From Fidelibacterota bacterium (GTDB lineage Bacteria; Fidelibacterota; Marinisomatia; SCGC-AAA003-L08; D37C17), in the NCBI GenBank assembly GCA_002705605.1, contig PAJD01000030.1:1-10839 (forward strand): DNA of 10,839 nt. The letters are read 5' to 3'. Shown here piece after piece: positions 1,312 through 10,529 of this stretch (position 1 is the first letter of the stretch; each line of letters opens with the position of its first letter). A program made the position numbers and the translations under genes. The notes beneath the pieces are model-generated. The model saw only the letters and a program-made list of their open reading frames with translations, was not told the origin of the DNA and searched no databases.

Positions 1312-4300
1312 TATTATATCACTAATTATTACATTAAAAATATCTTCTACTTGTAAATCATTTTGATCTATAGCTTGAATTGTAATTTGAGTTGTTTCAT
1401 AATCAGTTATTGTTTGGTTAATATAAAAACTTAATATTGGGCTACCTGTAATTTCTGACACAAACACCACAAAATCTTCATTTGAAGAAAAAGCATTATA
1501 TGTTAAAAACTCTTCAGACATTATTAACTGATCGACATCCAATATATAGTCATTTAAATCAACAAGATTATAATCCTGATTAAAATATAAATCTTCATCA
1601 AAATCAATATCATCAATTTCATTTAATAAAATAGGTGCGTCATTAACTGAATTAACTTGCAAATCAAACAAAACAGTATCAGTTAACGTATTCGTTTCAT
1701 ATAATTCTATATCATCATAAGCGATTAAATTTATCCCATAAACTCCAAAATAATTATCATCTGGAATTACAGTTAATTGATTATCAACAATGCTGCATGA
1801 AACAGGAGAATTGTTAAGAACAGGTTCAGCAAAATAATTAATAACATCTCCATCCAAATCAATTGCAGCTTCTGATAAATCAAATGTAAATATACCGTCC
1901 TCATCAATATTTGCATTTGAAAGAATCTGAGATTCAAATTCAATAGTAAATTCTGGAGCATTACCCGAATAAGTAAATGTATTTATAGTCACAGATTCTG
2001 ATGGGTTAGATTCAGTCCAGCTTCCAAGTATGTTTATAGCTGAAACTTGATACGAATATTCCATTTCACTTTCCAACTCATCATCAATATATGAAGTTGA
2101 TAATATATTATCTTCTAGCAATGAACCATTCCTATACAACCTATAAGTATCATCATTGACATTCAAATCAACAAATTCTAAACCCAAGCCTTCAAAAATC
2201 AAACTAGATGAAGATGTAGTAGCTAAAATCGTATTGGTATCATAATTCCAAACTTTTATATATGCATAATTCCCTTCAGAAAAACCATTATCACTTCCAT
2301 CATCTTTACTTACAGTTAAAGCTCCTCCAGGCAATGGCATTTGTCCTTTTCCTACACATTTCTCACCATCGAAAACAGCAATAATCGATCCATCAGGAAC
2401 ACTAGAATCATTATATAGAATTTCATTAACAACTATTGTCATAGGTTGATATGGGTTACCTTGATATACCAACTCAAATTCTTCATTTGCTTCATTTTCT
2501 GTAAATACTTTTGATGTCCAATTTATACTTGCCTCAGTATCTAAAAATTCACTCGCTCTTAAACCATCAGGCAAATCAGCCAATAAATTTTCTGGAATAT
2601 TTGCAGATAATAAATTGGATTGTTCTGTTGTTGTAGCCTCAACACTTTCTGAATTATCTGATGAACCAATCTCATTTGATGCAACAATATGATAAGAATA
2701 TGTTGTGTTTTTTTGCAATCCTACATCTGAAAAAGAAGTAGAAGTAGTTTGGCTTACATACTCTCCAAATCTATAAATTTGATAGGTAATAGGTGGAGAA
2801 CCTTCTGATGCAGTCCAATTTAACAATACTTGCTGATTTTGTCCAGTCGCAATGATATTAGATGGTATAGAGGCCGATAATTGAGGTAATGTTCCACTAC
2901 AAATAACATTAGATTTTTCTCCTTCTGATCCTTCACTGTTTACACCTGCTACACTATAACAATAATAAATGTTATCATCTAAATTAAAGTCTATATAATA
3001 ATTTTCACCTGTATTATCAAATAATGACATAGATTCTGTATCATTAAAATCTTCTAATTTTTCTTTATATATATTATATGAAACAGCTGCACCACCTATT
3101 GGATCGCCATATCCAGGAACACTATCCCAACCCAAACTCAATTGATTTTGACCATCTTGAATGTTAAAATTATCAGGAGCAGATGGAAACAACTCAGGTA
3201 ATGTAGTTATTTCAAAAATGTTTGAAGGCAAGGATTCTTGATTCAGTGCAGTTGCTGTAATAACATACTGTTTAAATTCACTAGTCAATAAATCTGAATC
3301 AATAAAAAATGTATCAGTTGTAGAATTAATCAATAAATGTTTATCATATATATTATATCCATCAGAACTGTTAACTAAATCCCATTGTAATGTTATGATA
3401 TTATTAGGAGGATCTAATACTTGTTCAGCTTGAGCTGTAATATTATCTACTTGGTTTAAGTCAGAATCACCAGCTAAAGTTTGACTTTCTACATAGCTTG
3501 ACCAATCAGAAGACCCTGAACTATTAAACGATTTGATTCTATAAGAAAAAAATGAAGAATTTAATAACCCAACATCATTATAATTCTGATCAGAATAATC
3601 ATCAGCGATTATATCATAATACTGATTATCATCAACTGACCAAAATCTTTCTATTTTATAACTAATTAAATCATCACTACCCGTATTAACTGGATTTTCC
3701 CATGTTAAATTATTTTGGTTCCTAAATGGATTAATAGCTAAATCAGCAATACCTGGAATTGTAACTGAATTATAATCTAGACTATTGCTTGTACCTACTG
3801 CTGATATAGCTTCAATAAAATATGAGTAACTAGTATTATAATCTAAGTTAGAATCTACAAAGTTTTGAGAGTCTAGATTTGAAGCTATATTAACATCATC
3901 TCTATAAACAGAAAAAACAACTGCATTAGATGGATTATTATTTAAATCATATACATTGTAATCTCCAATTTGTGGCCTATTCCATGAAATATTCATAGTT
4001 GTTTGCCCAGGATCAAGAGAAACACTACTAATAATAGATGGCGAATAAACTTGAAGCTCTAATCTTGGCGTTGTTAATGCTTCAAATATTTGACCGGTTG
4101 TATTTCCAGATATATCTGTCCAACTATCAATAGTAACATCTATATCAATTTGCAAAGATTCCTTCCACACTCTAAATGATATAGCATTAAATTCTGTATA
4201 CCCATTACCTGATCCATCATCCTTAGAAACTTTTATTTGATTATTTGAATCATTAATATTTCCATTAGAAGTGACAACTCCAGCACCCACACATAAATCT

Positions 4301-8908: not shown

Positions 8909-9023
8909 GATTTATTCTCCTTTTTTAATTGAGGTTAACTATAAATATATACTTGCAAGATTGTATTTTGTTCCTAAATGAATATCATTTTGTTTAATAA
9001 AAAATCAATAATATATTAGAGTG
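8909..9023. other. Divergent intergenic region with candidate promoter and direct repeat
   Basis: This AT-rich 115-bp gap separates divergent genes and must hold promoters for both. On the plus strand TTGTTT (8990-8995) and TATATT (9012-9017) are spaced by 16 bases. If used, they would start the transcript almost at the ATG at 9024. The octamer ATTTTGTT occurs twice (8965-8972 and 8987-8994), 22 bp apart, flanking an inverted repeat AAATGA-ATA-TCATTT (8976-8990). This could be an operator. No promoter is convincing on the minus strand. Confidence 0.35.
8917..8922 (-). promoter_or_regulatory. Shine-Dalgarno site AAGGAG for the 148-residue protein
   Basis: On the minus strand AAGGAG is followed by eight bases and then ATG at 8908. 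It fixes the start of the small membrane-anchored protein and stands out because most other genes here have no clear ribosome site. Confidence 0.8.
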
Positions 9024-9197
9024 ATGGTAGAATTCTTCTTATTTATGTTGTCTGCTTTTTTTAGTTTAGCTGGAATTAAATTAATCTTATTAAAAACAGG
9101 GAACCATGATACTGATATGTTTATGAAAATCATTGGATTAATTTTATTTATACCATCAATATATATTGTCCTTGAAACTTTAAAAATTATTAAATAA
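9024..9197 (+). CDS. 57-residue two-helix membrane protein, unknown function
   Basis: The ATG at 9024 opens a 57-codon frame ending in TAA. It encodes an N-terminal hydrophobic segment (about 3-24), a short polar loop (KTGNHDTD, 24-31) and a second hydrophobic segment (about 33-52) ending in Lys. This layout is typical of small inner-membrane proteins. Its stop lies one base before the ATG of the selenoprotein gene, so coupling is likely. A GTG just before the ATG is an alternative start, and the ribosome site is weak (GAG five bases upstream). I do not recognise a family. The case for it is its hydrophobic pattern and tight fit in front of two well-supported genes. A minus-strand frame across the same bases is less credible. 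Confidence 0.6.
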   Translation: MVEFFLFMLSAFFSLAGIKLILLKTGNHDTDMFMKIIGLILFIPSIYIVLETLKIIK

Positions 9198-9198
9198 A

Positions 9199-9423
9199 AT
9201 GAATATACATATAGAATACTGCATAAAATGAAATTATGAACCTGAATTTGACCGTGTGTCAAAAATGATAAAAAAAATTTCTTCTAATTCTAAAATATCA
9301 AGCAATAGAGACTATCCAAGATCTGGTTCATTTGAAATTGAAGTCGATGGAAAAATTGTATACTCTAAATTAAAGACATATAGATTTCCAACAGAAGAAG
9401 ATATTAATAAATTAATCAAATAA
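9199..9423 (+). CDS. selW: SelW/Rdx-family selenoprotein with in-frame TGA (Sec11)
   Basis: Read through one TGA (9229-9231), the frame gives a 74-residue protein that fits the SelT/SelW/SelH (Rdx) thioredoxin-like family. An N-terminal beta strand, NIHIEYC, leads to the redox motif C8-I-K-U11, so the TGA falls exactly at the CxxU selenocysteine position. A helix and the conserved SGSFEIEVDGKIVYSK segment (42-57) follow, then FPTEEDINKLI at the end. The family is thought to act in thiol redox reactions, with the exact substrate unknown. Start and stop fit tightly between neighbours: 1 base after the small membrane protein and 8 bases before the glycosyltransferase. No Shine-Dalgarno is visible. 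UGA is unlikely to mean Trp here, because the other genes use TGG and have no internal TGA. A sequencing error replacing a Cys codon is the main alternative. Confidence 0.9.
9247..9263 (+). promoter_or_regulatory. Candidate bacterial SECIS hairpin
   Basis: TTTGAC (9247-9252) and GTCAAA (9258-9263) form a perfect 6-bp stem around the loop CGTGT. The loop begins 21 bases after the UGA and has G as its second base. From established work, bacterial SECIS elements are a short stem with a small apical loop about 16-37 bases downstream of the UGA, with a G in the first two loop positions. A lower helix, TTAT (9234-9237) with ATAA (9268-9271), could extend the stem across an internal loop. SelB recognition is inferred. 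Confidence 0.75.
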
Positions 9424-9431
9424 AATTTAAA

Positions 9432-10529
9432 ATGAACATCCTATTAATCGAACCATTCTTCACTGGCTCTCATAAGCAGTGGGCTGAAGGTTATAAAAAT
9501 CACAGTCAACACAATATAGAGATTATTTGTTTAAAAGGGATATATTGGAAATGGAGAATGCATGGCGGAGCAATCACACTTTCAAAAAAATTTAATAATT
9601 ATGTAAAAAAAAATGGAAAACCTGATTTAATATTAGTAACAGACATGTTAAACCTCCCAGTTTTCACATCATTTTCAGATGTTTCAGAAGTACCTATTGT
9701 ATCTTTTTTTCATGAGAATCAAATAACATATCCATGGTCAACCCAGGATAGAGATAAAGAGAAAAATAGAGATCATCATTATGGATTTATAAATTATACA
9801 ACAGCATTAAGAAGTGATTTGATTATGTTTAACTCTAAATTTCATAAAAATATTTTCATTAAAGAACTAAAAAAATTTTTAAAACAATTCCCTGATCATA
9901 ATGATTTATATAATGTTGATGAAATCGAAGATAAATCAATTGTATCTTACCTTGGGTTAGATTTAAAAAAATTTGATGCATATAAAAATAATTCACAAAA
10001 TAAAATTCCAATAATACTCTGGAATCATAGATGGGAATATGATAAGAATCCTGATGATTTTTTTAATTGTTTAAAAAAATTAAAAAAAGAAAAAATTAAA
10101 TTTAAGCTCATTATACTAGGAGAAGAATTTCAGACAGAAATGCAGGTGTTTACTGAAGCTAGGGATTATTTTTTCGATGAAATAATTCACATGGGTTATT
10201 GTGAATCATTCTCTGAATATGCTGCTTTTCTAAATAAAGCTGATATTATTCCAGTAACAACAAATCAAGAATTTTTTGGTGTTAGCGTTATAGAAGCTAT
10301 ATATTGCGATGTATATCCATTATTACCAAATAGATTAACATATCCTGAATTATTTGATAATAAAAAAAATCCAGAAAACTTTTATTTAAATTCTAGTGAG
10401 CTATTTATAAAATTAAAAGAATATATAAAGAATAAACATAAAAAATCATTGAAGAAATACTCAAAAGAATATGATTGGTCTTCAATTGCTAAAAACTATG
10501 ATAGCTTAATGAATAAAATAATTAAATAA
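9432..10529 (+). CDS. GTDC1/DUF3524-type glycosyltransferase, tRNA-queuosine alpha-mannosyltransferase family
   Basis: The 365-residue product has the two-part structure of this GT-B family. The N-terminal DUF3524 domain (about 1-170) carries EPFFTGSHKQWAEGY, the W.WRMHGGA block, DLILVTDMLNL and FFHENQITYPWS. The GT4-type C-terminal domain carries ILWNHRWEYDKNP (about 195-207), LILGEEF, and an EX7E-like nucleotide-sugar site, E280-FFGVSVI-E288, followed by PLLPNRLTYPE. The vertebrate member (GTDC1/QTMAN) transfers mannose from GDP-mannose to queuosine in tRNA-Asp. Bacterial members share the domain, and a tRNA substrate here is inferred. The protein is cytosolic, with no signal or membrane segment. 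It starts 8 bases after the selenoprotein gene, so the two are probably co-transcribed. No Shine-Dalgarno is visible. Confidence 0.92.
   Translation: MNILLIEPFFTGSHKQWAEGYKNHSQHNIEIICLKGIYWKWRMHGGAITLSKKFNNYVKKNGKPDLILVTDMLNLPVFTSFSDVSEVPIVSFFHENQITYPWSTQDRDKEKNRDHHYGFINYTTALRSDLIMFNSKFHKNIFIKELKKFLKQFPDHNDLYNVDEIEDKSIVSYLGLDLKKFDAYKNNSQNKIPIILWNHRWEYDKNPDDFFNCLKKLKKEKIKFKLIILGEEFQTEMQVFTEARDYFFDEIIHMGYCESFSEYAAFLNKADIIPVTTNQEFFGVSVIEAIYCDVYPLLPNRLTYPELFDNKKNPENFYLNSSELFIKLKEYIKNKHKKSLKKYSKEYDWSSIAKNYDSLMNKIIK

Follow-up and report, generated by a model that had tools for sequence, protein, structure and literature searches.

A predicted SelW-like selenoprotein gene in a Neomarinimicrobiota genome and the covarying, SECIS-like hairpin that follows its UGA

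SelW-like proteins containing selenocysteine (Sec) are a known kind of protein in marine metagenomes, as an earlier note on the present locus also states. The excerpted text of the Sargasso Sea study gives 48 SelW-like genes with a CxxU motif and a bacterial SECIS element, which make up the most abundant selenoprotein family there (PMC1088965); that of the GOS study counts 427 Sec and 56 Cys forms of SelW-like proteins, again the most abundant family (PMC2398784), and in a later GOS set, likewise as excerpted, SelW-like proteins account for 11.3% (PMC9402790). The Sargasso Sea excerpt also places eukaryotic SECIS elements in the 3' UTR, unlike the hairpin described below (PMC1088965), and the GOS excerpt mentions ten reads on which selenoprotein genes for a peroxiredoxin (Prx) and SelW are neighbours, assigned to closely related but unnamed organisms (PMC2398784). 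For the lineage studied here, the table of one survey lists three SAR406 single-cell genomes with SelD and without another selenium trait (PMC5029168); beyond this table, we found no literature on selenoproteins of Marinimicrobia, SAR406 or Neomarinimicrobiota in a search with most subscription journals outside its scope.

The gene described here lies in the window, by which we mean the whole analysed stretch of 10,839 nucleotides, contig C27 of a 1.64 Mb Neomarinimicrobiota metagenome-assembled genome (MAG; 91.9% complete, 4.2% contaminated). Related SelW loci from titled genomes (n = 5; four Candidatus Neomarinimicrobiota MAGs and one “bacterium TMED6”) have a best full-length identity of 65–66% to the window protein, and three of them (L025, L026 and L027) share their SelW stretch with the same-genus genomes G007 and G008; it is on this close relationship that the lineage assignment is based. 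The window protein resembles the Sargasso Sea and GOS proteins, as far as these are described in the excerpts, in its CxxU motif, in the bacterial-type SECIS following the UGA and in its marine origin (PMC1088965, PMC2398784). Whereas the carriers are unnamed in the excerpted text of these studies (PMC1088965, PMC2398784, PMC9402790), here the phylum is named and the Sec machinery is found in the same assembly. The locus comprises the following features:

9021..9197 (+): 58-aa ORF ending 1 nt before the SelW start, with no NCBIfam or Pfam match
9199..9423 (+): predicted SelW-like selenoprotein gene, 74 residues, CxxU (C8, U11), stop TAA
9229..9231 (+): in-frame TGA at codon 11, read here as selenocysteine (U11)
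9247..9263 (+): putative bacterial SECIS hairpin, 9247-9252 pairing with 9258-9263 (six pairs), 15-nt spacer from the UGA
9253..9257 (+): apical loop CGTGT, of the form N-G-[T/G]-N-T in 92/92 distinct loci
9432..10529 (+): tRNA-queuosine alpha-mannosyltransferase-like gene, matching PF12038 (175.6 bits) and glycosyl transferase group 1, 8 nt past the SelW stop

The frame 9199-9423 (+) holds a single TGA, at codon 11, and is otherwise open to its TAA. The earlier note had proposed that reading this TGA (9229-9231) as Sec gives a complete 74-residue Rdx/SelW-like protein with the TGA exactly at the CxxU position, and had named TIGR02174 as the profile to compare it with. Both proposals stand: the 74-residue translation scores 68.4 bits against TIGR02174 (cut-off 34.2) and 61.5 bits against PF10262 Rdx (cut-off 22.6), in each case over nearly its full length, and the motif reads C8-I-K-U11 near the N-terminus, with the in-frame UGA aligned to the catalytic Cys/Sec position of the family. 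Score and CxxC/CxxU motif alike therefore place the protein in the SelT/SelW/SelH family (TIGR02174, PF10262 Rdx), while its score against the NF041051 (SelTWH_Campy) equivalog stays under the cut-off (65.6 versus 88 bits), so that it is not assigned to that equivalog. The note's further statements, that the gene fits between two co-directional genes and that it is left unannotated, fared differently: the fit is confirmed, with gaps of 1 nt and 8 nt and all genes on the + strand, whereas the second holds only in part, because translation table 11 still leaves a 55-aa GTG-started fragment (9256-9423). A relative of this fragment (P0019) is named “selT/selW/selH-like putative selenoprotein” in the protein database.

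In a stop-tolerant search of the genome, the window gene is the sole TIGR02174 match (63.1 bits, “1 TGA”), and the same search yields matches in 2 of 14 control genomes. Among solved structures, the Rdx protein C17orf37 (2ljk) matches the window protein in sequence with an E-value of 5.9e-8 and differs from it in the alignment by carrying Cys in place of Sec; weak matches to Atu0228 (2fa8; E 0.012) and selenoprotein W (2npb; E 0.095) cover a similar range, the three spanning residues 3-73 or 3-72. A match to the endo-beta-galactosidase 2ygl (1.7e-4) was taken as chance, as none of its stretches passes alone. In an alignment of 28 SelW rows, hand-picked after the hairpin tally given below, C8 and C/U11 of the motif are invariant, together with E6 and Y13.

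Sec synthesis is encoded in the window's genome. The earlier note had suggested looking there for selA, selB, selD and tRNA-Sec, of which all except selB are found over their cut-offs. Two of the genes have the following coordinates:

C35:29162-29253: tRNA-Sec, 65.8 bits (gathering 47), called tRNA-SeC with anticodon tca (UCA) by ARAGORN
C34:39014-40357: selA, 368.1 bits (cut-off 267.9), over the cut-off in 1 of 14 control genomes

Given that the tRNA-Sec model reaches E <= 0.001 in 14/14 control genomes and exceeds its cut-off in only 5, only the match over the cut-off was counted; the next eight matches in the genome score at most 40.3 bits, and ARAGORN reads the six next-best loci as tRNAs of the ordinary kinds (Leu, Ser, Gly and others). 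The selD match (356.6 bits, cut-off 125) has one TGA inside it, within GAGUACK, whose U we take to stand in the place of the active-site Cys; SelD is thus itself a predicted selenoprotein in this genome. selB adjoins selA, the two matches lying about 23 bases apart, and is present as pieces in two frames, all under the cut-off (best 133.1 versus 242.25 bits), in a stretch (G000:C34:37100-40450, L021) with 234 N in 3350 bases. In all six other genomes of the family that were examined, selB reads in one frame, scores over the cut-off and adjoins selA, and the two-frame selB of the window's assembly is most likely an assembly matter.

The TGA is conserved in the lineage. Within the family, SelW was found in 16 of 23 genomes and not found in the other seven, and each of the 17 matches contains exactly one TGA. 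Of the 245 genomes of the phylum, 143 have a SelW match and 102 have none; a TGA lies inside 143 of the 149 matches, one of which (G136) also shows a TAA. The six matches without TGA are partial and start at profile position 31 or later, past the motif. A full-length Cys form of SelW was seen in none of the 245 phylum genomes, and a look-up of Cys-containing orthologues, as the earlier note had proposed, gave none in the phylum and none with Cys at the site among 42 database proteins. While SelW occurs in Sec and Cys forms in the GOS data as excerpted (PMC2398784), Sec is therefore the sole form seen in Neomarinimicrobiota, where the SECIS is moreover backed by covariation.

A selA match is present in 201 of 245 phylum genomes (over the cut-off in 175) and absent, as counted by eye, from nine of the 143 SelW genomes (G016, G048, G057, G096, G100, G116, G138, G154 and G224), eight of which are less than 90% complete (the exception being G116 at 93%); several further SelW genomes have only a weak selA match. 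selA without SelW occurs in many genomes, for example in family f29. The 24 genomes of family f13 (G058-G081, 0.4-1 Mb) contain no SelW and have selA matches in 13 cases, none better than 8.7e-7, a pattern that looks as if the Sec trait had been lost with genome reduction.

The UGA is followed by a hairpin, which in the window has the stem TTTGAC / GTCAAA. We compiled 100 SelW loci, 97 of which remained after dropping a partial locus without a match (L029), one with an N in the motif (L044) and one in which the pattern fell on the wrong C..U (L092), and 92 of which were distinct after merging five that duplicated a stretch already in the set (L027, L037, L038, L039 and L045). Sixty of the loci had been chosen by hand to cover a broad range, at a stage when their hairpins had yet to be looked at; a further 48 TGA-bearing SelW matches were left out of the set. 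The stem joins bases 16-21 to bases 27-32 after the UGA, and its pairs are named here by 0-based positions, from (15,31) to (20,26).

The hairpin fits all 92 loci gap-free, its distance from the UGA being the same in each. Its four inner pairs are present in 91, 88, 90 and 91 of the 92 loci, and the two outer ones in 64 and 55; by class, the outer pairs are present in 21 and 22 loci of class A (n = 22, including the window) and in 43 and 33 loci of class B (n = 70), where they are often unpaired. All six pairs are found in 39 loci, and at most one is missing in 72. At the hairpin position, a fraction of 0.868 of all cells is paired, compared with 0.185-0.685 for the same shape placed at 28 other starts. 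In class B, RNAfold often closes the first base and the last T of the loop as an extra pair.

The best test for covariation is offered by third codon positions, on which the protein places the fewest constraints. In class B, pair (17,29), which joins two third positions, forms in 69 of the 70 loci as compared with 30.3 in shuffles (none of 20000 shuffles being as good); every one of the six standard pair types occurs at it, and among the 171 pairings of two third positions it ranks first by a wide margin. In class A, 21 of the 22 loci form pair (20,26), versus 13.1 in shuffles (0/20000 as good): the third bases of codon U+7 and of the Val codon U+9 pair as C-G, T-A or A-T in these 21 loci. The window stem does this with codons that are scarce in the genome stretches read, namely GAC (52 of 957 Asp codons) and GTG (35 of 666 Val codons). 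Pair (18,28) is formed in 66 of 70 class B loci versus 40.7 in shuffles (0/20000 as good). The remaining comparisons are less decisive, with 1141 of 20000 shuffles as good for (19,27) in class B, 284 for (20,26) in class B and 85 for (17,29) in class A, while (18,28) and (19,27) hardly vary in class A and are no better there than shuffles.

As the shuffles are uncorrected for kinship, parsimony was added, using a tree built from the stretch of protein encoded after the hairpin and giving 27 pair-state changes for (17,29), 5 for (18,28), 7 for (19,27) and 8 for (20,26). In a separate check of 24 rows, hand-picked after the 92-locus tally, 95.1% of the cells are paired and the covariation is 0.927, compared with 0.274 in shuffled and at most 0.229 in slid alignments (0/500 shuffles as good), and RNAalifold returns exactly the same six pairs. 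Folding of single sequences was discarded as proof of a SECIS: the window hairpin folded alone is mildly better than shuffles (z -1.92; 9/200 at least as good), and over 30 loci the z-values range from -2.32 to +0.87, which is unconvincing and makes covariation necessary. A search against Rfam gave no match to a SECIS family, and its two matches, far below their gathering scores, were taken as chance.

Lying just 3' of the UGA and having a small apical loop with a G, the hairpin has the marks of a bacterial SECIS, and the comparative evidence that it is one is strong. Its maintenance by paired mutations strongly indicates that the UGA is read as Sec. Among the alternatives, the one that survives best accepts the UGA as Sec and assigns the hairpin to another RNA function, for example mRNA stability; the data, being only comparative, leave it some room. 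We consider it very improbable, because the place, the size and the small G-bearing loop fit the bacterial SECIS as described in the excerpt of PMC1088965 and because, in the same genome, the Sec UGA of selD likewise has a hairpin behind it, drawn either with loop AGTTT and seven pairs or with loop GTT and eight and assessed without a shuffle control.

Reassigning UGA wholesale, for example to Trp as in code 4, would place Trp at position 11, and gene callers have indeed used that reading: of 42 proteins found in the protein collection (P0002-P0043), three start after the site, and each of the 39 that span it has W there. We nevertheless regard such a reassignment as extremely unlikely, as had the earlier note, which argued that all visible stops of the window are TAA and that TGG is used for Trp. 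The argument is correct for the window, in which 7/7 checked ORF ends are TAA and 5/7 ORFs use TGG in frame, and does not extend to the genome, but its conclusion is reinforced by this very difference: in four stretches (59 kb) of the wider genome, TGA ends 5 of 34 ORFs of at least 200 aa, selA among them, so that UGA is also an ordinary stop here, and it was on these ORFs that general reassignment was rejected. Beyond their TGA, the five ORFs stay open for only 0-25 codons, and none of them lies inside a longer ORF of the set; in addition, TGG is common in the stretches read (123 uses), and in some relatives a TGA seems to serve as the stop of SelW itself (e.g. L036, L040 and L050). Reassignment also leaves aside that tRNA-Sec, selA and selD are present, that the family has its Cys/Sec site at position 11, and that the hairpin covaries although a Trp reading needs none. 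Since the genome stretches read with the motif have TGA, the W of the database proteins most likely stems from gene callers applying code 4 to short, AT-rich contigs, which would fit the 34 of 39 W proteins that come from contigs with a longest length below 1,300 bases.

That the gene is a decayed pseudogene, or its TGA a sequencing or assembly error, might be suspected of a MAG with many N in places, yet 143 of 149 matches, drawn from separate genomes, share the TGA, the residues past it are conserved and the hairpin covaries, leaving this explanation a negligible chance. Equally hard to credit is that the true product is the 55-aa ORF from GTG 9256, which starts past the TGA without CxxU: it is open under table 11, and such fragments are in the database (P0015, P0019 and P0022), but it would lack the residues invariant in the 28 rows (E6, C8, C/U11 and Y13) and would leave unexplained a hairpin that starts ahead of it. 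We therefore hold, on comparative grounds, that the window gene genuinely encodes a selenoprotein, that it has its own SECIS and that its genome contains Sec machinery.

For this SelW-like selenoprotein, a SelB recruited by the hairpin would almost certainly insert Sec at the UGA 9229-9231. A ribosome arriving at this codon would meet SelB with Sec-tRNA-Sec, held by the hairpin 9247-9263, and Sec, supplied as Sec-tRNA-Sec through SelA and SelD, would be placed at position 11 in place of termination. The protein made, 74 residues long, would most likely be a small redox protein of the thioredoxin-fold type, whose Cys8-x-x-Sec11 would cycle via a selenenylsulfide while reducing a partner. This partner might be a peroxide-detoxifying enzyme or a glutathione-like disulfide.

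Gene order provides a hint as to the partner. Directly before the Sec-SelW gene (CxxU) and on the same strand, 10 of the 97 loci have a gene for a Sec-peroxiredoxin (TPGU), the distance from the end of the Prx frame to the SelW start being about 2-22 nt in nine loci and 346 nt in one. All ten (L052, L058, L095, L098, L101, L109, L111, L113, L114 and L119) belong to family f18, which contributes 13 of the 97 loci; the pair was absent from the other families among these loci, the window's included, with a search pattern that could miss diverged peroxiredoxins. The GOS reads, in the excerpted description, and the f18 loci are alike in having a Sec-peroxiredoxin gene beside a Sec-SelW gene (PMC2398784), and by this likeness family f18 is a good candidate for the source of those reads. 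On the basis of the gene pair in this one related family, a peroxiredoxin as partner of the window protein is a tentative guess, which we hold to be rather less probable than its opposite.

In the window itself, SelW and the queuosine mannosyltransferase-like gene are probably co-transcribed. The latter was considered as a conserved operon partner and rejected: such an ORF lies by SelW in three loci only (the window, L025 and L026), and we claim no functional link. Thirteen loci have an hflK-like ORF close to SelW, in most cases on the other strand.

Searching the genome for a few selenoprotein families revealed further genes with an in-frame TGA:

G000:C18:14441-14827 (L140/L144) (-): peroxiredoxin with in-frame TGA at TPGU (ANTPGU), a further likely selenoprotein
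G000:C35:8229-8621 (L141/L145) (-): redoxin domain with UPVC (UxxC; APNUPVC), in a 647-residue frame
contig C4 (L139), frame 1967-3298 (-): candidate with TGA at GUSTC (UxxC), 444 residues, adjoining a redoxin-type match

Two of the five AhpC-TSA matches of the genome, those on C18 and C35, have one TGA each inside the family match, and an AhpD-like (CMD) gene was not found in the window's genome. The redoxin UGA on C35 is followed by a hairpin with loop AGTTA, seen without a shuffle control, and by eye its frame has a dockerin-like repeat at the C-terminus. In the C4 frame, the TGA follows dockerin-like repeats, again as judged by eye, and this candidate may be an exported selenoprotein.

The hairpin also bears on the protein sequence. 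Pair (18,28) links the first base of codon U+7 with the second base of codon U+10, and the residues at these two sites mostly come as Ala..Ala, Ser..Glu, Thr..Val or Asp/Glu..Ser, and 88 of 92 loci preserve the base pair; the combinations that break it are Thr..Ala (3 loci) and Ser..Ala (1 locus). At U+8, beneath the G of the loop, the residue is Arg, Ser or Gly, with a codon NGT or NGG in 92/92 loci. We lean towards the view that the SECIS has shaped the protein, the pairing of bases 18 and 28 coupling the residues at U+7 and U+10 and the loop G confining the codons at U+8. A SECIS that limits the amino acids at these sites would be the simplest reading of the alignment; a purely protein-level cause of the coupling is a possible alternative, and (18,28) changes only about five times on the tree.

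SelW-like selenoproteins being a known kind, what is added here is the host lineage, the evidence for the SECIS and the Prx-SelW gene pair; within the literature searched, neither the picture across the lineage nor the evidence from covariation seems to have been reported before. The hairpin, the Sec of SelD and the other TGA-bearing redox genes of the genome are additions to the earlier note. The results place the commonest marine selenoprotein family in Neomarinimicrobiota (SAR406/Marinimicrobia), provide unusually clean evidence from third codon positions for a bacterial SECIS, and give a usable model for finding selenoproteins that gene callers truncate or read as Trp. If the SECIS has indeed shaped the protein, an RNA signal would drive the coevolution of amino acids next to the catalytic residues and contribute to locking the lineage into the use of Sec.
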